From Pseudomonadota bacterium (GTDB taxonomy: Bacteria > Pseudomonadota > Gammaproteobacteria > Burkholderiales > Burkholderiaceae_C), in NCBI GenBank assembly GCA_020161065.1, contig JAIUPH010000011.1:248001-312000 (forward strand): 64,000 bases of DNA, given 5' to 3'. A model generated the notes under the pieces. It ran no database searches, was not told where the DNA came from, and was given only the letters and a program-made list of their open reading frames with translations. Shown here piece by piece: positions 52,673 through 64,000 of the stretch (position 1 is the first letter of the stretch; the number at the start of each line of letters is the position of its first letter). The position numbers and the translations under genes were made by a program.

Positions 52673-53167
52673 TTAAGCGGGCTGCGGCATCACGACGATG
52701 CCATCCTCGTCAGCGTACAGCCATTCGCCGGGCCGCACGATCACCCCCTGGATCGTCACGGGCACGTCGGCCTGGCCCTGGTTGCGCTTCTCGGTCGGCA
52801 GCGGCATCGTGGCCAGCGCGCGGATGCCCACGTCGCAGGCCGCCAGCTCGGCCACGTCGCGCACCGCGCCGTCGACCACCACGCCGGCCCAGCCGTTGCG
52901 CGCCGCGGCGGCGCCCAGGTTGCCGCCGACCAGCGCGCGGCGCAGCGAGCCGCCGCCGTCGACCACCAGCACGCGGCCCTGGCCGGGGCTGTCGACCGCG
53001 GCCTTGACGAGGCTGTTGTCCTCGTGGCACTTGACGGTGACGACGGCGCCGCTGAACCTGCGGCGGCCGCCGAAATCGCGCAACCCCGGCGGCAGCACGC
53101 GAAAGGCGCCGTCGCTGTCGTTCTTGTGGGCGTCGCAGAGGTCGCAGGTGGCGAAGTCGCTGCTCAT
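52673..53167 (-). CDS. rraA: Ribonuclease E activity regulator RraA
   Basis: A 164-residue protein that matches canonical RraA in length and order: FATCDLCDAHKNDSDGAFRVLPPGLRDFGGR, AVVTVKCHEDNSLVKAAVDSPGQGRVLVVDGGGSLRRALVGGNLG, NGWAGVVVDGAVRDVAEL and GVIVRPGEWLYADEDGIVVM. RraA-fold proteins are trimers; some modulate RNase E, others are pyruvate aldolases or oxaloacetate decarboxylases. Here the start overlaps the stop of a ThDP enzyme gene (ATGA), so a metabolic role in that operon is possible. A longer RraA-like protein is encoded at 34121-34819. Confidence 0.85.
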   Translation of the reverse strand: MSSDFATCDLCDAHKNDSDGAFRVLPPGLRDFGGRRRFSGAVVTVKCHEDNSLVKAAVDSPGQGRVLVVDGGGSLRRALVGGNLGAAAARNGWAGVVVDGAVRDVAELAACDVGIRALATMPLPTEKRNQGQADVPVTIQGVIVRPGEWLYADEDGIVVMPQPA

Positions 53168-54876
53168 GACGGGTTCCTCTCGATGGTGGCGGCCAGCGCC
53201 GCGGCGCGGATGGCCGACAGCGTGCTGCGGGTGGTGCTGACGTCGGTGGCCAGCTTCAGGTGCAGCAGCGTGGGCTGCTGCGCGGCCAGCGCGCGCGCGA
53301 ACGCGGGCTCGAAGTCCGCGGTGCGGTCGACGAACGCCGCCTGCCAGCCGTAAGCGCGGGCCAGCGCGGCGAAGTCGGGGTTGGCGAGGTCGCTGCCGCT
53401 CACGCGGCCGGGGTACTCGCGTTCCTGGTGCATGCGGATGGTGCCGTAGCTGCCGTTGTCGACGACCACGCAGACCAGCTTGCGCGCGCCGTGGGCGACC
53501 GCGGTGATCAGCTCCTGCCCCGTCATCAGGAAGTCGCCGTCGCCGGCGATGTTGACCACCGTGCGCTGCGGCTGCAGCAGCGCGGCGGCCACCGCGGCGG
53601 GCACGCCGTAGCCCATGGCGCCCGAGGTCGGCGCCAGCTGCGTGCGGCCGTGGCGCTGCAGGCCCGGGTACTCGATATAACGGTGCATCCAGCCGGCATA
53701 GTTGCCGGCGCCGTTGGTGTAGACGGTGTCTTCGGGCGCCAGCCGGGTGATGGTCTTGACCACCTGGGCCATGTCCAGCGGCTCGACCACCGGCGCCTGC
53801 AGGTTGGCCTGGTAGTCGGCGCGCGCCGCCGCGGTGTGCTCGCGCCAGGGCAGCATGGCCGGCGCGGCCAGCGCTTCCAACGCCTTGGCGGCGCAGCCCA
53901 TCGAAGCCTGCAGCAGCAGGTCGGCCGCGTAGACGCGGCCCAGTTCCTCGGGCCCGGCGTGGACGTGCACCAGCGCCTGCCGCGGCCGCGGCGCCTGCAG
54001 CAACTGGTAGCCGCCGGTGGTCATCTCGCCCAGGCGGGCGCCGATGGCGATGACGAGATCCGATGCGCGGATGCGCTCGGCCAGCTTGGGGTTGATGGCG
54101 ATGCCGACGTCGCCCGCGTAGTTGGGGTGGCGGTTGTCGAACAGGTCCTGGAAGCGGAAGGCGCAGCCCACCGGCAAGGCCCAGTTCTCGGCAAAGTGCT
54201 GCAGCGCCAAGCAGGCCTCGGCGTCCCAGCCGCTGCCGCCGGCAATGACGAAGGGCCGCTTCGCCGCCAGCAACCTTTCGCGCAACTGGCGCAGGCCGCC
54301 GGGCGCGGGCCAGGCCTGCACCGGCTCCACCCGCGCCAGCACCGGCGCCATGGTGGCCTGCGTCAGCATGTCTTCAGGCAGCGCCAGCACCACCGGCCCG
54401 GGGCGGCCCTGCATCGCCACGTGGAAGGCGCGCGCCACGTACTCGGGCAGGCGGTCGGCGTCCTGCACCTCGGCCGCCCACTTGGCCATGCCCAGCGTGC
54501 CGGGACCGAAGAACTGGCGGTAGTCCAGTTCCTGGAAGGCCTCGCGGTCGCGCTGGTCGCTGGCCACCTGGCCGACGAACAGGATCATCGGCGTGCTGTC
54601 CTGGAACGCCGTGTGCACGCCGATGCTGGCGTTGGTGGCGCCGGGCCCGCGGGTGACGAAGCAGATGCCGGGGCGGCCACTGAGCTTGCCCTGCGCCTCG
54701 GCCATGAAGGCGGCGCCGCCTTCCTGCCGGCAGGCGATGAAGCGGATGCGCTCGCGCTGCTCGTAGAAGCCGTCCAGCACCGCGAGGTAACTCTCTCCCG
54801 GCACGCCGAAGGCGGTGTCCACGCCCTGGGCGATCAGGGCTTCGACGAGGGCGTGGCCGGCAAGGCGCGAGGTCAT
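53164..54876 (-). CDS. Thiamine diphosphate-dependent enzyme (acetolactate synthase-like)
   Basis: A 570-residue ThDP enzyme. The N-terminal PYR domain has MTSRLAGHALVEALIAQGVDTAFGVPGESYLAVLDG and the catalytic Glu in RFIACRQEGGAAFMAEAQGKL. The central domain has FVIAGGSGWDAEACLALQHF. The C-terminal PP domain has AMGYGVPAAVAAAL and the Mg/ThDP motif NIAGDGDFLMTGQELITAV ... VVDNGSYGTI. It resembles catabolic IlvB-like proteins (glyoxylate carboligase, benzoylformate or 2-oxo acid decarboxylases) and no ilvN gene is near, so valine synthesis is unlikely. It is co-translated with rraA and divergent from the tetR gene, whose operator lies between them. Confidence 0.85.
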   Translation of the reverse strand: MTSRLAGHALVEALIAQGVDTAFGVPGESYLAVLDGFYEQRERIRFIACRQEGGAAFMAEAQGKLSGRPGICFVTRGPGATNASIGVHTAFQDSTPMILFVGQVASDQRDREAFQELDYRQFFGPGTLGMAKWAAEVQDADRLPEYVARAFHVAMQGRPGPVVLALPEDMLTQATMAPVLARVEPVQAWPAPGGLRQLRERLLAAKRPFVIAGGSGWDAEACLALQHFAENWALPVGCAFRFQDLFDNRHPNYAGDVGIAINPKLAERIRASDLVIAIGARLGEMTTGGYQLLQAPRPRQALVHVHAGPEELGRVYAADLLLQASMGCAAKALEALAAPAMLPWREHTAAARADYQANLQAPVVEPLDMAQVVKTITRLAPEDTVYTNGAGNYAGWMHRYIEYPGLQRHGRTQLAPTSGAMGYGVPAAVAAALLQPQRTVVNIAGDGDFLMTGQELITAVAHGARKLVCVVVDNGSYGTIRMHQEREYPGRVSGSDLANPDFAALARAYGWQAAFVDRTADFEPAFARALAAQQPTLLHLKLATDVSTTRSTLSAIRAAALAATIERNPS

Positions 54877-54952
54877 GGCGTCGGCAGGGTGGGCAGTGGA
54901 TGCAGACCTGGGATTATCCCGGCCCGGCCGCGGCGCCGCCGCGTGGCGCGGC

Positions 54953-54975
54953 CATACTTGCACACTTGGTGAATT
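54953..54975 (+). promoter_or_regulatory. Operator TTGCAC-N4-GGTGAATT at the tetR start
   Basis: The putative -10 CATACT (54953-54958) is followed by TTGCAC-ACTT-GGTGAATT (54959-54975), which ends 1 bp before the ATG of the TetR gene. TTGGTGAATT (54966-54975) occurs again exactly at 57417-57426, and TGGTGAATT on the other strand at 60667-60659. The leader would be very short, with GGTGA serving as both operator and ribosome binding site. Confidence 0.55.
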
Positions 54976-54976
54976 G

Positions 54977-55681
54977 ATGGCTTCCTCGCCCGCTTCCGCC
55001 GCCGCTTCTGCCGCCACCGCTCGCCGGGCCGCCGCCCCCGGACGGCCGGCGGCCGCCGAGCCGCGCGCGCGCGACGCCGACCGCTCGCAGAAAGACATCC
55101 TCGACGCCGCGCTGGCCGAGTTCGCCGACGCCGGCCTCGGCGGTGCGCGCATGGACCGCATCGCCGAGCGCGCCGGCGTCAACAAGCGGCTGATCTACTA
55201 CTACTTCGACAGCAAGCAGGGCCTGTTCCTGGCCGTGCTGGAGCGCGCCTACGAAGGCATCCGCGGCGAGGAGCAGCAGCTCAACCTGTCGCAGGAAGAG
55301 CCGATCGAGGCCATCCGCCGGCTGATCGCCTTCACCTGGAACTACTACATCGCGCACCCCGAGTTCCTCACGCTGCTCAACAGCGAGAACCTGCACCGCG
55401 CGCGCCACCTGAAGCAGTCGCCCAACGTGCGGCGGCTGAACTCGCCGCTGGTGGCGATGCTGGCCGACGTGCTGGAGCGCGGCCACAAGGCGGGCCTGTT
55501 CCGCACCGGGGTCGACCCGGTGCAGCTCTACATCTCGATCGCCGGGCTGTCGTACTTCTACCTCGGCAACTGCCACACGCTGTCGACCATCTTCGACCGC
55601 GACCTGCTCGGCACCAAGGCCAAGGTCGAGCGGCTGTCGCACATGACCGAGCTGGTGCTGGGCTACCTCGTGCGCGACTGA
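54977..55681 (+). CDS. TetR-family transcriptional regulator
   Basis: A 234-residue repressor. After an Ala/Arg-rich, probably disordered N-terminus comes the TetR helix-turn-helix: SQKDILDAALAEFADAGLGGARMDRIAERAGVNKRLIYYYFDSKQGLF. The C-terminal ligand domain includes NYYIAHPEFLTLLNSENLHRARHLKQSP and GVDPVQLYISIAGLSYFYLGN, typical of the RutR-like/PsrA-like C-terminal family. The operator near 54966 lies directly at its start. It likely represses itself, the divergent ThDP enzyme-rraA operon, the transporter and the phyH region until a catabolite binds. Ligand unknown. Confidence 0.85.
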   Translation: MASSPASAAASAATARRAAAPGRPAAAEPRARDADRSQKDILDAALAEFADAGLGGARMDRIAERAGVNKRLIYYYFDSKQGLFLAVLERAYEGIRGEEQQLNLSQEEPIEAIRRLIAFTWNYYIAHPEFLTLLNSENLHRARHLKQSPNVRRLNSPLVAMLADVLERGHKAGLFRTGVDPVQLYISIAGLSYFYLGNCHTLSTIFDRDLLGTKAKVERLSHMTELVLGYLVRD

Positions 55682-55691
55682 CCGCAGCCGT

Positions 55692-56465
55692 TCAGTCCAT
55701 GCCAAGCAGCTTGTAGATGCGCCGCGTGTAGGCGCCGAAGCGCTCGTGGGTCTTGATGTCCAGCGTGCGCGGGTGCGGCAGCTCGATCTCGAAGTTGTCG
55801 GCCATGCGCGCCGGGCCGGCGGTGAAGACCACCACGCGCGTGCCGAGGAACACCGCTTCAGAGATGCCGTGCGTGACGAAGACGATGGTCTTGCCCGACT
55901 CCTTCCAGATGCGCAGCAGCTCGAGGTTCATCTTCTCGCGCGTCAACGCATCGAGCGCGCCGAAGGGCTCGTCCATCAGCACCAGCTTGGGGTCGTGCAC
56001 CAGCGAACGGGCGATGGCCGCGCGCTGCTGCATGCCGCCTGACAGCTCGTACGGATACTTCTCTTCGTAGCCGGCGAGGCCGACCATCGCCATCAGCGAG
56101 CGCGCGCGCTCGCGCGCCTCGCGCATCGGCAGGCCCAGCAGTTCGGCGGGCAGCAGCACGTTGTCGATGATGCGGCGCCACTTCAGCAGCAGCGGCGCCT
56201 GGAACACCATGCCGACGTCGCGCGCCGGGTCGAAGGGGTGCGTGGCCGAGCCCATGCGCAGCTCGCCGCCGTCGTGCGGGTGCAGGCCGGAGAGGATCTT
56301 CAGCAGCGTCGACTTGCCGCAGCCCGAGGGCCCGACCAGCGCCACCAGCTCGCCGGGCATGACGTCGAAGCTGGCGTCGGAGATCGCCAGGTGCTGCTTG
56401 CGCCCGCTGCGGTAGGTCTTGCTGACGCCGACGAGGTGGATGAAGGGGTCGACGGCGGCAGTCAT
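55692..56465 (-). CDS. ABC transporter ATP-binding protein (NitT/TauT/SsuB type)
   Basis: A 257-residue ATPase that powers an importer. Walker A is VGPSGCGKSTLL, the Q-loop is VFQAPLLLKWRRI, the signature LSGGMQQRAAIAR, Walker B LVLMDEPFGALD, and the H-loop FVTHGISEAVFL. It belongs to the nitrate/sulfonate/taurine/pyrimidine-precursor importer family. The ATG at 56465 overlaps the permease stop (ATGA), so the two are co-translated. The matching periplasmic receptor is encoded divergently at 57519. Confidence 0.9.
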   Translation of the reverse strand: MTAAVDPFIHLVGVSKTYRSGRKQHLAISDASFDVMPGELVALVGPSGCGKSTLLKILSGLHPHDGGELRMGSATHPFDPARDVGMVFQAPLLLKWRRIIDNVLLPAELLGLPMREARERARSLMAMVGLAGYEEKYPYELSGGMQQRAAIARSLVHDPKLVLMDEPFGALDALTREKMNLELLRIWKESGKTIVFVTHGISEAVFLGTRVVVFTAGPARMADNFEIELPHPRTLDIKTHERFGAYTRRIYKLLGMD

Positions 56466-57229
56466 GACACGCGCGCATCCTTGGCCACGAGCAGCCGTTC
56501 CAGCAGCATCACCAGCCCATACAGCAGCATGCCCAGCAGCGTGATCAGGATCACCGCCATGAACATCGCCGGCGTGTCCAGCGTCACCTGCACCTGCAGC
56601 ATCAGGTAGCCCAGGCCGCGGTCGGAGCCGAGGAACTCGCCGACCACGGCGCCGGCCACCGCCAGGATGGCCGCCACCTTCATGCCCGAGAAGATGTACG
56701 GCAGCGCGCCGGGCAGCTGGATCTTGGTGAACAGCTGCCAGCGCGAGCCGCGCAGCGAGCGCACCAGGTCGAGCAGCTCGGGCTCGATCTCGCGCAGCCC
56801 GCGCGCGGTGGTCAGCAGGATCGGGAACACCGCGATCGAAAACGCCATGATGGTGTTCGGGAACACGCCGTACTTGAACCAGACGATGATCAGCGGCCCC
56901 AGGGCGACCTTGGGTACCATGTTCAGCGTCACCAGCAGCGGCAGCACCAGCGCCTCCAGCGTCTTCGACCAGGTGAACACCAGCGCCAGCGCGACGCCCA
57001 CCACCAGCGCCAGCGCATAGCCGCCGAAGATCTCGGTACCGGTGACCAGCGCGTTGTGCCACCAGTCGTAGTTGGGCACGAACAGCGCGGCCAGCGTGTC
57101 GGCCGGCGACGGCATCACGAACTTGGGCACCTCGCCCAGGCGCACGAACAAATACCAGGCCAGCAGCAGCAGCAGGTGGGCGGCGATGCCCAGCGCGTAC
57201 TGGCCGAGCCGCGAGTTCAGGCGGTCCAT
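56462..57229 (-). CDS. ABC transporter permease (NitT/TauT/SsuC type)
   Basis: A 255-residue inner-membrane protein with about six helices. The EAA loop is ELLDLVRSLRGSRWQLFTKIQLPGALPYIFSGMKVAAILAVAGAVVGEF, the contact with the ATPase. Other parts: AAHLLLLLAWYLFVRL, PSPADTLAALFVPNYDWWHNALVTGTEIFGGY. The ATG at 57229 is preferred; a TTG two codons upstream is possible. It lies 290 bp from the divergent NMT1-like receptor gene. Between them is a TetR-type operator. Confidence 0.9.
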   Translation of the reverse strand: MDRLNSRLGQYALGIAAHLLLLLAWYLFVRLGEVPKFVMPSPADTLAALFVPNYDWWHNALVTGTEIFGGYALALVVGVALALVFTWSKTLEALVLPLLVTLNMVPKVALGPLIIVWFKYGVFPNTIMAFSIAVFPILLTTARGLREIEPELLDLVRSLRGSRWQLFTKIQLPGALPYIFSGMKVAAILAVAGAVVGEFLGSDRGLGYLMLQVQVTLDTPAMFMAVILITLLGMLLYGLVMLLERLLVAKDARVS

Positions 57230-57392
57230 GGTCAAGCGAGCCGGCGCACGGCGTGGGCGGCGGCGCAGCCGTCGTCGACGGGCGCGGCGGCAACCACGGT
57301 CATGGCGGGCGGTGCGGAACGGTGTCGGGGCATAGGGAAAGTCTGTACCGTCTGGAGCGGCCAGCAGCGGGTGCGAAACGCGTCGCCGACCC

Positions 57393-57427
57393 TATACTGA
57401 ACCCGCAAATCACCGATTGGTGAATTT
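57393..57427 (+). promoter_or_regulatory. TATACT -10 and operator AAATCACC-GATT-GGTGAATTT
   Basis: TATACT (57393-57398) is followed 8 bp later by the near-palindrome AAATCACCGATTGGTGAATTT (57407-57427), so a bound repressor would cover the transcription start. TTGGTGAATT is identical to the site before the tetR gene. The site lies 92 bp before the receptor gene and also upstream of the permease-ATPase operon on the other strand. Confidence 0.6.
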
Positions 57428-57518
57428 ACTCTAGCCCAGGCCCCGGGGCCCGTCAACGAGGCCGCACCCTGCCCCGGACCGCGGGGGCCCGCGCCCTGAT
57501 CCACGCCAAGGAGACCGC

Positions 57519-58514
57519 ATGTTCGCAAGACTCGCCAGACTCGCACTGGGCGCCGTGGCCGCCATGGCCGCCGCCGCACCGGCGGCCGCCCAGACCAAGG
57601 TCGACTTCATCCTCAACTGGGTGCCCGGCGGCGACCACGCGCCCTACTACTACGCCAAGAAGCTGGGCTGGTACGCGCAGGCCGGCATCGACCTCAACAT
57701 CGAGCCCGGCAAGGGCTCGGCGCTGTCGACGCAGCGCGTGGGCGCCGGCGCCACGCCCTTCGGCCTGGCCGACATGGCCGGCGTGCTGGTGGCCAAGGGC
57801 AAGGGCGCCGACACGGTGGCCGTGTACAACGTCTACGCCAACTCGCCGCAAGGCATGTACTGGCTCAAGAGCTCGGGCATCAAGGGCGTGAAGGACTTCG
57901 CCGGCAAGAAGATCGGCAACCCCGCCGGCGACGGCGCGCGCGTGATGTGGCCGGCGCTGGCCAAGGCCAACGGGCTGGACCCGAAGAGCGTCACCTGGGT
58001 CAACATCGACGCCAACGGCAAGCTGGCGGCGCTGAAGGCGAAGTCGGTCGACGTGACGACCTCGTTCTACAACATCCACCACATCTTCGAGCGCGAGCTC
58101 GGCGCCGACATGGGCTTCCTGGCCTGGCGCGACGCCGGGCTCAACCCCTACGGCAACTCGATCATCGTCAACGCCAAGTACCTGGAGGCGAACAAGCCGC
58201 TGGTGGACAAGTTCGTCAAGGTGACGCAGCGCGCCTTCGCCGCCTGCGTGAAGGAGCCGCGGCCCTGCGTGCAGGCGCTGGTGGACGCCAACGGCGCGCT
58301 CAAGCTCGACAACGAGCTGGAGAACTGGGGCCTGGTCGAGAAGCTGATGAGCGACAAGTTCTCGCGCGAGATGGCGCTCGGCATCCACGAAGACGGGCGC
58401 ATGAAGGCCGACTACGAACTCGTCAGCGAGTACATCGGCCTCGACAAGCCCTTCGACGTGAAGACGACCTACACCAACGAGTTCCTCGACCGCTCGATCA
58501 AGATGACCAAGTAG
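57519..58514 (+). CDS. NMT1/THI5-like ABC transporter substrate-binding protein
   Basis: A 331-residue periplasmic receptor. It has a signal peptide (MFARLARLALGAVAAMAAAAPAAA) and the NMT1-like core KVDFILNWVPGGDHAPYYYAKKLGWYAQAGIDLNIEPGKGS. GVKDFAGKKIGNPAGDGARVMWPALAK is the phosphate-like loop, and HIFERELGADMGFLAWRDAG follows. GGAG lies 6 nt before the ATG. Relatives bind hydroxymethylpyrimidine, riboflavin, sulfonates or aromatic sulfur compounds. It belongs with the divergent permease and ATPase. The ligand is probably the substrate of the downstream catabolic genes. Confidence 0.9.
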   Translation: MFARLARLALGAVAAMAAAAPAAAQTKVDFILNWVPGGDHAPYYYAKKLGWYAQAGIDLNIEPGKGSALSTQRVGAGATPFGLADMAGVLVAKGKGADTVAVYNVYANSPQGMYWLKSSGIKGVKDFAGKKIGNPAGDGARVMWPALAKANGLDPKSVTWVNIDANGKLAALKAKSVDVTTSFYNIHHIFERELGADMGFLAWRDAGLNPYGNSIIVNAKYLEANKPLVDKFVKVTQRAFAACVKEPRPCVQALVDANGALKLDNELENWGLVEKLMSDKFSREMALGIHEDGRMKADYELVSEYIGLDKPFDVKTTYTNEFLDRSIKMTK

Positions 58515-58522
58515 GCCCGCGG

Positions 58523-59512
58523 CTAGCCCAGCTCGGGCCCGGCAACCAGCAGCAATGCGGCCGGGTCGCCGGGGGCGCGCGCTGGGGCGGCGCTGTCGTC
58601 GTCATCGCCGCTGCCGCTGCCGCTGCCTTTGACCATGCGTGTGAACGGCCGCTGGAACTCGAAGCCGAGCGCCTGCAGCGCCGGCAGCAGCGCCTGGCGG
58701 TGGTCGCACAGGTCGACGTAGACGCCGCCGGGCTGCTCGCTCGGCGCCACCAGACTCGAAAGCGCCGCCTGCAGCAGCGCCAGCGCCACCGTGTCGTCGG
58801 CGGCCAGCAGCGGGCCGATCTGGCCGGCCTCGCGGCCATCGCGGGCGAAGACATGGCCGCACAGGCGGCCGTCGGCCGCTGCCGCCACCAGCGCGGCTTG
58901 CGGCCGGCGCTGCGCCAGCGCGCGCAGCAGCGGCGTGCGGTCGGCGCCGAAGGCCGGCGCGTCCAGCGCCTGCAGCGCGGGCCAGTCGCCGTCGTGCAGC
59001 GGGCGCAGCGTGATGCCGGCCGGCGGCCGCAGCAACGGCGGCGCCGGCCGCGCGGCGCGCCGGTAGCGCGCAAAACCCCAGCTGTCGCGGAAGCCTTCGC
59101 GCGCATAGACGTCGTGGCCGGCGGGCGTGGCGTCGAGCACGGCCGGCAAGCCCTGCTCGCGCAGGTACGCCAGCGCCTCGCGCAGCAGCCGCGTCGCCAG
59201 CCCCAGGCGGCGGAACTCCTGCCGCACCAGCACCATGCTGACCCACGCGAAGCGGCTGCCGGGCGTGCCCGGTGGCGCGGACTCGGACGCGGACGCGGCC
59301 GGCCCATAAGGCAGCACCAGCGTCGATGCCACGAGCGGCTGCGTGCCGTCGGCCAGCCGCGCGCGCAAGCCCCAGCCGCGGCCCAGCGCCAGCATCGTGC
59401 GCCAGTCGTCGGCGTTCTGGTTCCAGTGCGCCGATGCCGACAGCGCCACCGCATCGCCGACGTCGGCCGCACCCAGCGGCAGCACCGGGCTGTGCTCGGG
59501 CGAGGTGTCCAT
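58523..59512 (-). CDS. GNAT-family N-acetyltransferase, two-domain
   Basis: A 329-residue protein. The N-terminal GNAT domain contains the acetyl-CoA motif FAWVSMVLVRQEFRRLGLATRLLREAL (R/Q-x-x-G-x-A) and GHDVYAREGFRDSWGFARYRR. The second half has GITLRPLHDGDWPALQALDAPAFGADR and GHVFARDGREAGQIGPLLAADD, like the YitH/HSE1-type C-terminal GNAT domain. The tail is Ser/Gly/Asp-rich. RBS GGGGAG is 9 nt before the start. It lies 21 bp upstream of the end of the MetE-like gene, same strand. Substrate unknown. Confidence 0.8.
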   Translation of the reverse strand: MDTSPEHSPVLPLGAADVGDAVALSASAHWNQNADDWRTMLALGRGWGLRARLADGTQPLVASTLVLPYGPAASASESAPPGTPGSRFAWVSMVLVRQEFRRLGLATRLLREALAYLREQGLPAVLDATPAGHDVYAREGFRDSWGFARYRRAARPAPPLLRPPAGITLRPLHDGDWPALQALDAPAFGADRTPLLRALAQRRPQAALVAAAADGRLCGHVFARDGREAGQIGPLLAADDTVALALLQAALSSLVAPSEQPGGVYVDLCDHRQALLPALQALGFEFQRPFTRMVKGSGSGSGDDDDSAAPARAPGDPAALLLVAGPELG

Positions 59513-59533
59513 CGCCGCCCGCTCCCCGGCTTG

Positions 59534-60538
59534 TCAGGACGCGATGCCCTCGAAGCGGTCGCGCCCCAGCGCCAGCGCGCGCATCTTGGCGTCGGCGATG
59601 CTGCGCTTGAGCATCCAGAAGCCGCAGTCGGGGTGGATGTAGCGCACGCGGCCCGGGCCCAGCAGCGTCTCGGCGCGCTCGATCGCGCGCGCCACCGCGT
59701 CGGCGCTCTCGACGTCGGTGCGCTTGATGTCGACCACGCCGAGGCCGAGGCCGATCTCCGGCCGCAGCTCGCGCAGCGCGGCCAGTTCCTCGGGCGGGCG
59801 GTGCGCGCATTCCAGCACCACGTGGTCGGCGTGCAGCGCGTTCAGGTAACGCAGCAGTTGATCCCACGTGCCCTTCTGCACCGTCTGCCCGCCGTAGTTG
59901 CCGAAGCACAGGTGCACCGCGGGCGTGCCGCGCACGGCATCGAGCACGCGGTTGATCGCCGCGGCCGCCCACTCCCATTCGGCGGGGTGGCCGGGCAGGT
60001 TGGCCTCGTCGATCTGCACCACGTCGGCGTCGAGGTGGCGCACCTGCGCGGCCAGCGCGTCGGCGATGGCCAGCGCCAGCGCGGCGGGGTCGCCGTAGTG
60101 CTTGTCGATCAGCGTCTTGGCCAGCATGTGCGGGCCGGTGACGGTGAACTTGAAGGTCTTGTTCGCCAGCGCGTGGGCGCGCGCGCAGGCCAGCGGCAGG
60201 TCCAGGCTGCCGTGACCGATGGGGCCGACCACGGTGCCCGGAGGCCGCGTGCGGAACTTCATGCCGCTGGCCGAGCGGTAGGCGATCAGGTCGTCGAACG
60301 AGAAGCGCTGCGTGATGCCGTCCATCGGCCGCACGAAGTACTCGATCATGCCGTTGGTCTCGGGGTGGTTCACGTCGAAGCGGTAGAGCTCGCCGTCGCA
60401 GACGACATCGATGCCGGCCTGCTCCTGCGTGCCGATGACGACGCGCGTGGCGTCGAGCAGCGCCTGCTCGGACGGTGCCGCGAGCAGCCAGTCCGGCACG
60501 GGATAGGAGCCGACGACGGTGGTCTGGATGCGGGGCAT
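59534..60538 (-). CDS. Cobalamin-independent methionine synthase family protein (MetE C-domain-like)
   Basis: A 334-residue protein that corresponds to the C-terminal catalytic barrel of MetE. Zinc ligands are visible: His and Cys of HLCFGNYGG, Glu of LECAHRPPEEL and Cys of IHPDCGFWML. The start MPRIQTTVVGSYPVP is typical of stand-alone proteins of this family, which transfer methyl groups between unidentified small molecules. DVVQIDEANLPG provides the conserved Asp-Glu near the thiol. The gene is divergent from phyH; the TetR-type operator lies between. The ATG at 60538 is chosen by homology; an in-frame ATG at 60601 is unlikely. Its real methyl donor is unknown. Confidence 0.85.
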   Translation of the reverse strand: MPRIQTTVVGSYPVPDWLLAAPSEQALLDATRVVIGTQEQAGIDVVCDGELYRFDVNHPETNGMIEYFVRPMDGITQRFSFDDLIAYRSASGMKFRTRPPGTVVGPIGHGSLDLPLACARAHALANKTFKFTVTGPHMLAKTLIDKHYGDPAALALAIADALAAQVRHLDADVVQIDEANLPGHPAEWEWAAAAINRVLDAVRGTPAVHLCFGNYGGQTVQKGTWDQLLRYLNALHADHVVLECAHRPPEELAALRELRPEIGLGLGVVDIKRTDVESADAVARAIERAETLLGPGRVRYIHPDCGFWMLKRSIADAKMRALALGRDRFEGIAS

Positions 60539-60628
60539 GGTGGCGCTCGTGTTAACCGTTCGGTGACGATCGATGCTAGGGCGGCCCTGCCGGAGCGTCA
60601 ATCGGCCCCAGGGAAAGCGCGCATGTCC

Positions 60629-60680
60629 TTGACGCCGCCCGAGGGCCGCGTCTACATTAATTCACCAGATGGGGATTAAC
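60629..60680 (+). promoter_or_regulatory. phyH promoter TTGACG-N18-TACATT with overlapping TetR-type operator
   Basis: TTGACG (60629-60634) and TACATT (60653-60658) are 18 bp apart. Directly after the -10 comes AATTCACC-AGAT-GGGGATTAA (60659-60679), an imperfect inverted repeat that shares TGGTGAATT (minus strand 60667-60659) with the sites at 54966 and 57417. A repressor there would block transcription of the phyH operon and perhaps of the divergent MetE-like gene. Confidence 0.6.
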
Positions 60681-60748
60681 AGCCGGGATCCCCGCGTCGG
60701 GCGCCGTGCGCGGCGTCGCCGCGGGCCCCGCTGCCGCAGGAGGCCCAC

Positions 60749-61492
60749 ATGCGCATCGACGACAGCGACCTGGCGGTCTACCGCCACAGCGGCCACCTCA
60801 CGGTGCCGGGCGTGTTCGCCGCCGGCGTCGTCGATGCGCTGGTCGCCGACATCGAGCGCTGGGGCGAAAGCTTCCTCGCCGAGCTGCCGGCCGAGCAGCG
60901 CGCCTGGTACGTCGACGGCGGCGTCAAGGCGCGCTCGGTGCTGCGCAAGCTGGACAACCCGCACCACCACCGCGACGCGGTGCGCGAGCTGGCGCGCTCG
61001 CCGGCACTGGTCGAGCGGGTCGAGTCGTTCATCGGCCGCGGCGTCTCGGTTTACTTCAGCCAGATCTTCTTCAAGCCGCCCGAAGGCGGCGGCCCGAAGC
61101 CGGCGCACCAGGACAACTTCTACTTCGGCCCGAACGACCTTGAAGGCGTGGTGACGGCGTGGATCGCGCTCGACGACGCGACGCTGGACAACGGCTGCCT
61201 CTACTTCGGCGAAGGCAGCAACCGCGGCCCGGTCTACCCGCACGAGGCGCCGCCCGACGAGCCCTACAACCTGCAGTTGCCGGCCGCGCTGCTGGCGCGC
61301 CAGCCGATGACGCCGGCGCCGGTGATGAAGGGCGGCGTGTCGTTCCACCACGGCAACACCTTCCACCAGTCGGCGCCCAACCTGTCGACGCGGTGGCGCC
61401 GCGCCTGCGCGCTGCACTACGTCAACCACGGCACCTTCTTCGAGCGCCCTGCGCTGCCCTACGACCACGCGCTGAAGCTGCGCGTGAGCTGA
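60749..61492 (+). CDS. Phytanoyl-CoA dioxygenase (PhyH) family protein
   Basis: A 247-residue Fe(II)/2-oxoglutarate-dependent oxygenase. The facial triad is His120-x-Asp122 (PAHQDNFYFG) with distal His206 (FHHGNTFHQSAPN), and Arg215 (STRWRRA) binds 2-oxoglutarate. The start MRIDDSDLAVYRHSGHLTVPGVF is typical. GGAGG lies 5 nt before the ATG. It is the first gene of a four-gene operon with an oxidoreductase, a DUF993 protein and a sugar-isomerase-like protein. It probably hydroxylates the imported compound. The true substrate is unknown; nothing links it to phytanic acid. Confidence 0.85.
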   Translation: MRIDDSDLAVYRHSGHLTVPGVFAAGVVDALVADIERWGESFLAELPAEQRAWYVDGGVKARSVLRKLDNPHHHRDAVRELARSPALVERVESFIGRGVSVYFSQIFFKPPEGGGPKPAHQDNFYFGPNDLEGVVTAWIALDDATLDNGCLYFGEGSNRGPVYPHEAPPDEPYNLQLPAALLARQPMTPAPVMKGGVSFHHGNTFHQSAPNLSTRWRRACALHYVNHGTFFERPALPYDHALKLRVS

Positions 61493-61519
61493 ACCCCGTT
61501 TCCCCCGAAAGACATCGCC

Positions 61520-62683
61520 ATGACGACCGAACGTCTGGGCCTGATCATGCACGGCGTCACCGGCCGCATGGGGCTCAACCAGCACCTGATCCGCTCCATC
61601 GTCGCCATCCGCAACCAGGGCGGCGTGCTGCTGTCGGACGGCCGCCGCGTGCTGCCCGACCCGGTGCTGATCGGCCGCGACGCGGCGAAGATCGAGGCGC
61701 TGGCGCGCGCGCACGACATCAGCCGCTGGGGCACCAATCTCGACGCCGCGCTGGCCAGCCGGGAAGACAGCGTCTTCTTCGACGCCGGCACCACGCAGAT
61801 GCGCCCGGCGCTGCTGGCCGCCGCGCTGCGCGCCGGCAAGCACGTGTACTGCGAGAAGCCGATCGCCACCACGCTGGCCGAGGCGATGGAGATCTGCCGC
61901 GTCGCCAAGGCCTCCGGCCTGAAGCACGGCGCGGTGCAGGACAAGCTGTTCCTGCCCGGGCTGCGCAAGCTCGACCTGCTGCGCCGCGCCGGCTTCTTCG
62001 GCCGCATGCTGGCGGTGCGCATCGACTTCGGCTACTGGGTGTTCGAAGGCGACCTGCAGCCGACCCAGCGCCCGAGCTGGAACTACCGCCGCGAAGACGG
62101 CGGCGGCATGATCCTCGACATGATGTGCCACTGGCGCTACGTGCTGGACAACCTGTTCGGCGAGGTGCAGTCCATCACCTGCCTGGGCGCCAGGCACATC
62201 GATCGCCGCTGGAACGAGGCCGGCCAGCCCTACGAGGCCACCGCCGACGACGCCGCCTACGCCACCGCGCAGCTGCGCGGCCACGGCGGCGAGCCGGTGG
62301 TCGCGCAGTTGACGATGAGCTGGGCCACGCGCGTGCGCCGCGACGACCTCGTCACCTTCCACGTCGACGGCACGCACGGCTCGGCCGTCGCCGGGCTGCA
62401 GGAATGCCGCGCGCAAAGCCGCGTGACCACGCCGCGCCCGGTGTGGAACCCCGACGTCAAGCAGACCATGAACTTCTTCGACCAGTGGCAGGACGTGCCC
62501 GACGCCCAGGCCTACGACAACGGCTTCAAGCTGCAGTGGGAAGCCTTCATCCGCCATGTCGCCGAAGATGCGCCTTATGCCTGGACGCTGGCCGAAGGCG
62601 CCAAGGGCGTGCAACTCGTCGAGGCGGCGCTGCAGAGCTGGCAGGAGCGGCGCTGGATCGACGTGCCGGCGCTGGCGGTGTAG
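61520..62683 (+). CDS. Gfo/Idh/MocA-family NAD(P)-dependent oxidoreductase
   Basis: A 387-residue oxidoreductase. The N-terminal Rossmann domain begins LGLIMHGVTGRMGLNQHLIRSI; CEKPIATTLAEAMEIC is the conserved E-K-P motif. The C-terminal domain includes VRIDFGYWVFEGDLQPTQRPSWNYRREDGGGMILDMMCHWRYVLDNLFGEV, with the catalytic-type His, and YAWTLAEGAKGVQLVEAAL. It probably oxidises a sugar- or polyol-like alcohol group. It begins 27 bp after phyH. The DUF993 start is 6 bp downstream. Relatives often occur next to DUF993 genes. Confidence 0.85.
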   Translation: MTTERLGLIMHGVTGRMGLNQHLIRSIVAIRNQGGVLLSDGRRVLPDPVLIGRDAAKIEALARAHDISRWGTNLDAALASREDSVFFDAGTTQMRPALLAAALRAGKHVYCEKPIATTLAEAMEICRVAKASGLKHGAVQDKLFLPGLRKLDLLRRAGFFGRMLAVRIDFGYWVFEGDLQPTQRPSWNYRREDGGGMILDMMCHWRYVLDNLFGEVQSITCLGARHIDRRWNEAGQPYEATADDAAYATAQLRGHGGEPVVAQLTMSWATRVRRDDLVTFHVDGTHGSAVAGLQECRAQSRVTTPRPVWNPDVKQTMNFFDQWQDVPDAQAYDNGFKLQWEAFIRHVAEDAPYAWTLAEGAKGVQLVEAALQSWQERRWIDVPALAV

Positions 62684-62689
62684 GCGGCC

Positions 62690-63883
62690 ATGGCCACCAC
62701 GATCACGCTGCCCACCGCCGACGGCCGGCTGGCGCCCTGGACGCTGCTGGGCCCCGGCTCGTTCACCCCCGCGGCGCCGGGCACGCCGCTGCCGCGCATC
62801 GCCTATTCGGCCGCCCACGTGGTGGCCGATGCGCGCGCCGCGATCGACCCCTGGCTGCAATGCGCGATCGACTGGGACGCCACCATCGGCTACCGCCGGC
62901 GCCTGTGGCGGCTGGGCCTGGGCGTGGCCGAGGCGATGGACACCGCGCAGCGCGGCATGGGGCTGGACTGGCCGACCTCGCTGGCGCTGATCGGCCGCAG
63001 CCTCGACGCGGCGCGCGACCTGCCCGGCGCGCGCATCGCCAGCGGCTGCGGCACCGACCACCTGGCGCCCGAGGCGGCGCGCAGCGTCGACGACGTGATC
63101 CGCGCCTACGCCGAGCAGATGGCGGCGATCGAAAAGCTCGGCGGCAAGCTCATCGTGATGGCCAGCCGCGCGCTGGCGCGCGTGGCGCGCGGGCCGGCGG
63201 ACTACGAGCGCGTCTACGACTTCGTGCTGAGCCAGGCGCGCGAGCCCGTCATCCTGCACTGGCTGGGCGAGATGTTCGACCCCGCGCTGGCCGGCTACTG
63301 GGGCAGCGGCAGCGACGTCGCGGCGGCGATGGACACCGCGCTGGGCGTCATCGCCGCGCATGCCGGCAAGGTGGACGGCATCAAGATTTCGCTGCTCGAC
63401 AAGGCGCAGGAAATCCGCATGCGCCGCCGCCTGCCGCCGGGCGTGCGCATGTACACCGGCGACGACTTCGACTACGCCGAGCTGATCGCCGGCGACGGCG
63501 TCGGCGCGCACCCGAACCAGCGCCAGAGCGACGCGCTGCTGGGCATCTTCGACGCCGTGGCGCCGGCGGCCAGCGCGGCGCTGGCGGCCCTGGGGCGCGG
63601 CGACGCCGATCGCTTCCACCAGATCCTGGCGCCGACCGTGCCGCTGTCGCGCCACATCTTCCAGGCGCCGACGCGCTTCTACAAGACCGGCGTCGTCTTC
63701 ATGGCCTGGCTCAACGGCCACCAGGACCACTTCGTGATGGTCGGCGGCCAGCAGAGCACGCGCTCGCTGCCGCACCTGGCCGAGTTGTTCCGCCTGGCCG
63801 ACACGGCCGGGCTGATCGAGCAGCCGGACCTCGCCGTGCAGCGCATGCGCACGCTGCTGGCGCTGCACGGCGTGGCCGGTTGA
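62690..63883 (+). CDS. DUF993 (dihydrodipicolinate synthase-like) family protein
   Basis: A 397-residue TIM-barrel protein. The start MATTITLPTADGRLAPWTLLGPGSF and IAYSAAHVVADARAAIDPWLQCAIDWDATIGYRRRLW are typical of DUF993, a distant relative of DapA-type aldolases. IDGIKIS-like segment VDGIKISLLDKAQEIRMRRRLPPGVRMYTGDDFDYAEL includes a Lys at the Schiff-base position. The family is found in sugar-acid and inositol-like catabolic clusters; the reaction is not known. It is the third gene of the phyH operon. Confidence 0.85.
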   Translation: MATTITLPTADGRLAPWTLLGPGSFTPAAPGTPLPRIAYSAAHVVADARAAIDPWLQCAIDWDATIGYRRRLWRLGLGVAEAMDTAQRGMGLDWPTSLALIGRSLDAARDLPGARIASGCGTDHLAPEAARSVDDVIRAYAEQMAAIEKLGGKLIVMASRALARVARGPADYERVYDFVLSQAREPVILHWLGEMFDPALAGYWGSGSDVAAAMDTALGVIAAHAGKVDGIKISLLDKAQEIRMRRRLPPGVRMYTGDDFDYAELIAGDGVGAHPNQRQSDALLGIFDAVAPAASAALAALGRGDADRFHQILAPTVPLSRHIFQAPTRFYKTGVVFMAWLNGHQDHFVMVGGQQSTRSLPHLAELFRLADTAGLIEQPDLAVQRMRTLLALHGVAG

Positions 63884-63896
63884 CGGCGGTGACGCC

Positions 63897-64000
63897 ATGA
63901 GGGACTTCTCCGCCGACCATCGCTGGCTGTCGATCAACACCGCCACCGTGCGCCGCCAGCGCGGGCAGGACTGGAACCTGCTGCAGATCCTCGATGCCTG
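63897..64000 (+). CDS. Sugar phosphate isomerase/epimerase-like protein, N-terminal part only
   Basis: The first 34 codons are present; the gene runs off the right edge. MRDFSADHRWLSINTATVRRQRG then WNLLQILDA is the start of a xylose-isomerase-like TIM barrel, as often encoded beside Gfo/Idh and DUF993 genes. The ATG at 63897 is 13 bp after the DUF993 stop. It extends the phyH catabolic operon. Family call is tentative because of the short length. Confidence 0.5.
   Translation, partial: MRDFSADHRWLSINTATVRRQRGQDWNLLQILDA

Follow-up and report, generated by a model that had tools for sequence, protein, structure and literature searches.

The window analysed here is a stretch of 64,000 nt of contig JAIUPH010000011.1 from a Burkholderiales genome of 6.29 Mb. 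From position 52673 onwards it carries genes for an RraA-like protein, a thiamine diphosphate (ThDP) enzyme, a TetR regulator, an ATP-binding cassette (ABC) importer with an NMT1-type receptor, a GNAT acetyltransferase, a MetE-like methyltransferase, a PhyH dioxygenase, a Gfo/Idh dehydrogenase, a DUF993 protein and a sugar-isomerase-like protein (Table 1). As judged from sequence, this is a real and conserved catabolic cluster with its own set of operators. A sequence-only reading of the window had placed these genes together, and every one of them is present, intact and in position; scans for open reading frames and protein families found all of the cluster's frames uninterrupted. Two details changed: 54977 is the most probable start of the TetR gene, and the isomerase-like gene lies mostly beyond the window end, where it was read from the same contig. 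The starts of the ThDP, TetR, ATPase and MetE-like genes are our choice among the open frames. The ThDP and RraA genes share a 4 bp overlap, and an operon-like series runs from PhyH through Gfo/Idh and DUF993 to the isomerase-like gene, with 27, 6 and 13 bases between neighbours.

Table 1. Genes and operator-like sites of the DUF993 cluster (window positions; bits are scores against the named model or the site matrix)
Feature	Position	Strand	Evidence
RraA-like protein, optional member	52673-53167	-	PF03737
ThDP enzyme, PRK08199 subfamily, loosely tied	53164-54876	-	NCBIfam NF006052, 821.4 bits vs cut-off 539
Operator-like site with one good half (GGTGAATT), between ThDP and TetR genes	54956-54975		Matrix rank 3 in 88 kb, 12.1 bits
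TetR regulator (TetR_C_29)	54977-55681	+	PF00440, PF17938
ABC importer ATPase	55692-56465	-	PF00005; ATG start 4 bp inside permease gene
ABC importer permease	56462-57235	-	PF00528
Operator palindrome AAATCACC-GATT-GGTGAATT, divergent importer/NMT1 promoter	57407-57426		32.6 bits
NMT1/THI5-type substrate-binding protein	57519-58514	+	PF09084, 164.4 bits
GNAT acetyltransferase, optional member	58523-59512	-	PF00583, PF18014
MetE-like methyltransferase, core-methionine-synthase type	59534-60538	-	PF01717
Second, weaker operator-like site at MetE start	60550-60569		Matrix rank 4 in 88 kb, 10.2 bits
Operator-like palindrome AATTCACC-AGAT-GGGGATTA, divergent MetE/PhyH promoter	60659-60678		Matrix rank 2 in 88 kb, 23.2 bits
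PhyH Fe(II)/2-oxoglutarate dioxygenase, variable member	60749-61492	+	PF05721
Gfo/Idh/MocA dehydrogenase, core	61520-62683	+	PF01408/PF22725
DUF993 protein, probably DapA-like TIM barrel, core	62690-63883	+	PF06187, 601.6 bits
AP_endonuc_2 sugar-isomerase-like protein, core	63897-64775 (window ends at 64000)	+	PF01261

Conservation of the cluster was followed through 103 other DUF993 loci, comprising 18 stretches from relatives, 5 plasmid records and 80 named genome contigs. All were chosen as top DUF993 matches, and because the 80 contigs are the best-scoring of at least 594 DUF993-encoding places, they lean towards close relatives. The presence of each gene was counted per locus by tblastn, with labels given at identity floors of our own setting (27% for NMT1, 35% for several families); since these floors are ours and the families are broad, NMT1, MFS and AraC are possibly over-counted. 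Of these loci, 78 exceed 15 kb in length; among them, 74 carry the isomerase-like gene, 71 Gfo/Idh and 63 a related TetR. Less constant are an MR_MLE enolase-like gene (48), the NMT1 receptor (32, at its 27% floor), the TctA subunit of the tripartite tricarboxylate importer (18), ThDP (14), PhyH (6) and the MetE-like gene (5). A general lack of linkage in related genomes, which would have spoken against a unit, was not seen, and the linkage reaches across families and classes: Gfo/Idh, DUF993 and the isomerase-like gene occur with a related TetR in Burkholderiales, Acetobacteraceae, Bradyrhizobium, Sinorhizobium and others. Over the whole set, the isomerase-like gene is present at 93 of the 103 loci and TetR relatives of at least 40% identity at 73. 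Gfo/Idh lies no more than 233 bp from DUF993 on the same strand at all 87 loci that hold both, a count that leaves out locus L039, where the contig end cuts DUF993; a further 15 loci are without Gfo/Idh at the chosen floor, partly because their stretches are short. NMT1 and TctA co-occur in none of the 78 long loci, and the two importer types substitute for each other in DUF993 clusters. The core is made of four genes, TetR, Gfo/Idh, DUF993 and the isomerase-like gene, accompanied by an interchangeable importer and otherwise variable modules. Their linkage is well supported by these sequences.

The cluster itself is patchy: of 61 genomes in the set of relatives 19 encode DUF993, and of 250 Burkholderiales genomes (requested completeness at least 90%) 20 do, the genome studied here belonging to both sets. 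In the latter set the linkage was also examined in reverse, starting from the other genes, with up to 8 MetE-like, 5 ThDP and 11 TetR candidates scored per genome. An orthologue of the MetE-like gene (E up to 1e-80) is present in six genomes, and in 6/6 it shares a contig with DUF993, at a distance of 2-11 kb (4.6-11.1 kb in the five genomes other than our own). All five of these others fall within the 19 of 249 genomes that encode DUF993, for which the chance is 1.5e-6, uncorrected for relatedness. TetR at 60% identity or more occurs at seven other places, six of them 3.0-8.0 kb from DUF993 on its contig and the seventh on another contig of a DUF993 genome, adjoining a ThDP relative. Two other orthologues of the NMT1 receptor, at 77-78% identity, each lie on a DUF993 contig, 8.2 and 13.8 kb from that gene, and two lower matches (58% and 40% identity) are off such contigs. 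PhyH (E up to 1e-50) was found in no other genome among the 250.

The promoter regions of the cluster share the palindrome AATTCACC-N4-GGTGAATT. At up to three mismatches the 103 loci hold 60 such sites, spread over 32 loci and with 55 lying outside labelled genes, against 0, 9, 3 and 1 sites for four control palindromes (one reversed, three scrambled). An initial count that took in 20 kb of this contig found 62 sites, against 2 in one Markov shuffle. A site is present at 27 of the 31 loci with a TetR of at least 60% identity, at 2 of the 42 with a TetR of 40-60%, and at 3 of the 30 without a TetR match in the stretch. By these counts the presence of the predicted operator follows TetR identity, an association that is well supported by sequence and behind part of which shared descent of close loci may lie. 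A site matrix built from the other loci alone, leaving the window out, ranks 57407, 60659, 54956 and 60550 as the top four places in 88 kb of the contig; all four sit at the cluster's three divergent promoters, and the next-best place scores 6.6 bits. The shared operator-like sites noticed in the sequence-only reading are hence real. Control by TetR, which had also been proposed, is most likely, as the operator tracks TetR in those 27 of 31 loci, but among the 20 genomes of the order that encode DUF993 no more than 8 have a TetR of at least 60% identity.

Across the whole genome, four places match the palindrome with up to three mismatches, two in the cluster and two elsewhere, while the reversed control finds 2. 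The site at 57407 is the sole place with fewer than three mismatches (one); 60659 has three, and 54956 is absent from the four. By mismatch count only 57407 is distinct genome-wide, because the count elsewhere equals that of the reversed control, and the regulon looks local to the cluster. Further regulon members elsewhere in the genome were considered and dropped, the two three-mismatch places being all that was found. Identity with the pyrimidine regulator RutR was likewise rejected, since the cut-off of its model is not reached.

The enzymes of the core carry intact motifs, which is well supported at the sequence level. Gfo/Idh has E112-K113-P and D200/H204, and the isomerase-like protein has a metal-ligand set (E156, D195, H221 and E265) that at least 97% of 76 sequences retain; the catalytic roles of these residues, and of those in PhyH below, are taken by us to be the ones usual for their families. 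In DUF993, K232 is invariant (33/33) within a GIK motif that is followed by Y-x-GDD. Aligned by hhalign with a DapA-type protein of the same genome, DUF993 matches over residues 215-327, including GIK and GDD, at a probability of 11% and an E of 0.0027. Aldolases of the DHDPS/NAL kind have a GTTGE-type substrate-binding motif and a catalytic Tyr, neither of which is visible by eye in the DUF993 family alignment; the hhalign match covers only residues 215-327. Pfam keeps DUF993 as a family separate from PF00701. Because the DapA alignment is weak, a putative role of DUF993 as a Schiff-base lyase acting through K232 is a lead and not a result. Solved structures exist for all three of the core enzyme families, namely 3ju2 (SMc04130 of Sinorhizobium meliloti), the DUF993 relative 4dnh and 3oqb, which score 335.6, 520 and 607.8 bits; we take 4dnh to be SMc04132 and 3oqb to come from Bradyrhizobium. 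These entries are labelled as uncharacterized protein or oxidoreductase, and no published function was found for them. In the one S. meliloti record examined, sugar-type importers and an annotated mandelate racemase stand beside the core.

Taken together, we regard it as moderately probable that the cluster is a local, substrate-inducible catabolic regulon for a polyhydroxylated compound imported through the NMT1 system. In the scheme that we infer, TetR would repress three divergent promoters through the AATTCACC-N4-GGTGAATT sites, those between ThDP-RraA and TetR, between the ABC importer and the NMT1 receptor, and between the MetE-like gene and PhyH-Gfo/Idh-DUF993-isomerase, until it is released by a ligand, which may be the imported compound itself or a product of its breakdown. 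What the NMT1-type importer brings in would be a small polyhydroxylated molecule, with a sugar acid, lactone or cyclitol derivative as the likeliest candidates. By oxidation, Gfo/Idh would then turn a hydroxyl into a ketone, the metal-dependent TIM-barrel protein would isomerize the oxidized product, and DUF993, by way of a lysine Schiff base at K232, would cleave or rearrange the carbon skeleton. PhyH and the MetE-like protein would serve as optional front-end modules, the latter transferring a methyl group from the substrate to homocysteine.

The class of compound is suggested by what related clusters add. Besides the enolase-like gene, a ketose-3-epimerase-like protein occurs at 27 of the 103 loci and a tartronate-semialdehyde-reductase-like protein at 7, these types being judged from one or two representatives each; the additions therefore suggest a polyhydroxylated acid or lactone. 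Sugar-acid pathways use an enolase-superfamily dehydratase, a DapA-like aldolase and tartronate semialdehyde reductase. Related clusters carry MR_MLE, PF00701 and tartronate-reductase-like proteins, whereas there is no MR_MLE among the cluster genes of the window, the rest of the genome not having been searched. The importer is complete, with PF09084, PF00528 and PF00005 all over cut-off. It was not accepted as a sulfonate importer, as its receptor reaches 64.5 bits on the SsuA model TIGR01728 where the cut-off is 163.5.

A different class of substrate has also been weighed. The cluster might instead degrade a planar aromatic, heteroaromatic or carboxylate compound, since importers of both the NMT1 and the tripartite tricarboxylate type are known to handle aromatic acids in some cases, with Gfo/Idh resembling the dehydrogenase of protocatechuate 4,5-cleavage and RraA acting as a hydroxy-oxo-acid aldolase. 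Gfo/Idh does match PmdC weakly (E 1.5e-6), and an annotated ring-cleaving dioxygenase lies about 6 kb past DUF993 in one Chelatococcus record. Moreover, DUF993 at loci L032, L036, L043 and L040 (55-72% identity) has CoA-transferase neighbours and no Gfo/Idh, and some of the four add an acyl-CoA dehydrogenase, a short-chain dehydrogenase or an enoyl-CoA hydratase. They perhaps represent a second kind of pathway; as CoA-transferase clusters without Gfo/Idh, they imply that DUF993 may serve more than one compound. Against an aromatic substrate, the genes that could be identified next to the core in the window include no ring-cleaving dioxygenase, and the isomerase and the accessory enzymes are of the sugar-epimerase, tartronate-reductase and enolase kinds. 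RraA, for its part, is present at 2 of the 103 loci (at least 50% identity) and passes the ordinary NCBIfam RraA model with 221.5 bits (cut-off 136), which also counts against its place in a single-compound pathway. An aromatic or carboxylate substrate is on balance unlikely.

Several points weigh against a regulon for a polyhydroxylated compound. Some of the 103 loci are near-duplicates (for example two from Chelatococcus, three from Pseudacidovorax and many from Bradyrhizobium), and the loci are non-independent samples. TetR and the MetE-like gene are not universal: of the 20 order genomes with DUF993, 12 are without a TetR at 60% identity and 14 without the MetE-like gene. Relatives of ThDP, found in 86 of the 250 genomes, are mostly unlinked to DUF993, on which ground ThDP was dropped as a core enzyme. 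The NMT1 family binds many non-sugar ligands, the hhalign match of DUF993 to DapA is weak, and the four CoA-transferase loci fit an acid or a ring compound equally well.

The unlinked ThDP relatives raise the further possibility of two adjoining systems, a core DUF993 pathway next to an unrelated group of NMT1 importer, MetE-like and ThDP genes, and so does the number of core loci that are without the MetE-like gene, PhyH, GNAT or RraA. We consider this very unlikely, since the MetE-like gene is linked to DUF993 in six of six genomes, both of the other close NMT1 orthologues lie on DUF993 contigs, and operator sites stand at all three promoters, if weak at two. A single regulon is preferred, with ThDP, RraA and GNAT weakly tied to its core. 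ThDP is divergent from TetR within 600 bp at 14 of the 15 loci with both; among the ThDP places reported, only that of our own genome lies less than 10 kb from DUF993, those of genomes G038 and G131 being 18.9 and 39.3 kb away. GNAT, at 40% identity or more, is found at 5 of the 103 loci and adjoins MetE at L027, L033 and L035. The sequence-only reading had assigned all ten genes to one compound; this is supported only in part, in that the linkage of uptake and catabolism holds but ThDP, with its mostly unlinked relatives, and the rarely present GNAT are loosely tied.

Hydroxylation, which had been part of the same proposal, keeps its enzyme but loses its general place. PhyH is intact, with the HxD...H iron triad and the 2-oxoglutarate arginine, and H120-x-D122, H201/H206 and R217 are identical in all seven sequences including the query. 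With PhyH at 7 of the 103 loci and in 1 of the 250 genomes (the query itself), however, hydroxylation is an add-on. PhyH is not a strict substitute for the enolase-like gene either, an idea given up because four of the six long PhyH loci hold both.

The MetE-like protein is another of the variable members. Its zinc ligands H210, C212, E244 and C306, along with S12, E51 and D178, are identical in all eight sequences including the query, the positions having been matched by eye to the zinc- and homocysteine-binding residues of core methionine synthases named in the available text of PMC7857596. Like the core methionine synthases MesA-MesD described there, it is without a folate domain and keeps the H-C-E-C and S/E/D positions. 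It scores 97.5 bits on PRK09121 (by inference the MesD-type model), where the cut-off is 392, and 148.2 on PRK04326, where it is 406; unlike MesA-MesD, it sits in a catabolic cluster. There is no DUF1852 among its scanned neighbours, the rest of the genome not having been searched for one. That it is an ordinary methionine synthase, uninformative about a methylated substrate, is possible but doubtful. The retained zinc and homocysteine positions and its placement by Pfam and NCBIfam among methionine synthases would fit such an enzyme. On the other hand, it falls far below every methionine-synthase cut-off listed, even its best score being the 148.2 bits against 406, and among the 250 genomes it occurs, at E up to 1e-80, only in those with DUF993. 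The genome also carries MetH and, besides, three other PF01717 places, so that housekeeping probably does not depend on the MetE-like protein. Its simplest use, these sequences suggest, would be to pass a methyl group of the substrate on to homocysteine, and we infer demethylation from this. In a more specific version, the cluster of the window would degrade, aerobically, a sugar acid or cyclitol with an O- or N-methyl group, a fifth kind of core MetE would demethylate it onto homocysteine, and DUF993 would found a new family of Schiff-base lyases by which the oxidized sugar skeleton is cleaved; this version is speculative and unlikely. If it were true, the imported compound would be demethylated directly onto homocysteine, giving methionine from a carbon source.

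Beyond the cluster, an MFS transporter and a divergent AraC regulator lie just past it on the same contig (64817-67011). MFS relatives occur at 24 and AraC relatives at 16 of the 103 loci (identity at least 35%); both may therefore be cluster members, though of broad families. Other loci show further arrangements. A lumazine-synthase-like protein (PF00885, one member scanned) follows the cluster at L050 (13159-13920), L049, L051, L053, L055, L062 and L066, seven loci that belong to Variovorax, Pseudacidovorax, Xenophilus and one Burkholderiales metagenome-assembled genome. A frame of 529-720 aa, possibly miscalled, stands between DUF993 and the isomerase-like gene at L028 (6576-8165), L031 and L038; the one member scanned has no Pfam or NCBIfam match. 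At L046, L047, L060 and others, a lone TctC-type receptor gene directly precedes Gfo/Idh, with no TctA found in the stretch. L091, from a metagenome-assembled genome of a marine-type Rhodospirillaceae, brings together NMT1, PhyH, a PF00701 protein, an epimerase, both isomerase-like proteins and MR_MLE relatives; MetE-like and ThDP genes were not found in this stretch by tblastn.

Among known pathways, myo-inositol catabolism is close in its logic, with IolG (Gfo/Idh), IolE/IolI (AP_endonuc_2) and IolD (ThDP) providing, as in this cluster, an oxidation, an isomerase or dehydratase and a ThDP enzyme. It was rejected because Gfo/Idh scores 62.7 bits where the inositol dehydrogenase cut-off is 355. 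The ThDP enzyme of the cluster belongs to the PRK08199 kind, none of the best 25 of its 56 matches being to an IolD model, and DUF993 is, to our knowledge, not part of the myo-inositol pathway. The sequence-only reading knew of no described pathway with this set of genes, and none was found in the literature searched. Neither PDB codes nor combinations of family names led to one, several of these searches being narrow. No paper naming DUF993 was found, in a literature that mostly left out subscription papers and so gives no proof of absence. PF06187 and four S. meliloti locus tags returned one incidental table entry, the single appearance of SMc04132 in an expression table in the available text of PMC12542648.

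The DUF993 family is strongly conserved, has a solved relative and is encoded at no fewer than 594 places, yet no paper that names it has come to light. With its own importer, receptor, regulator and operator, the cluster described here makes the function of the family directly testable, and it is a good target because receptor and operator bring the question within reach of experiment. The linked MetE-like enzyme, in turn, suggests a possible route by which bacteria may draw methyl groups from a growth substrate.

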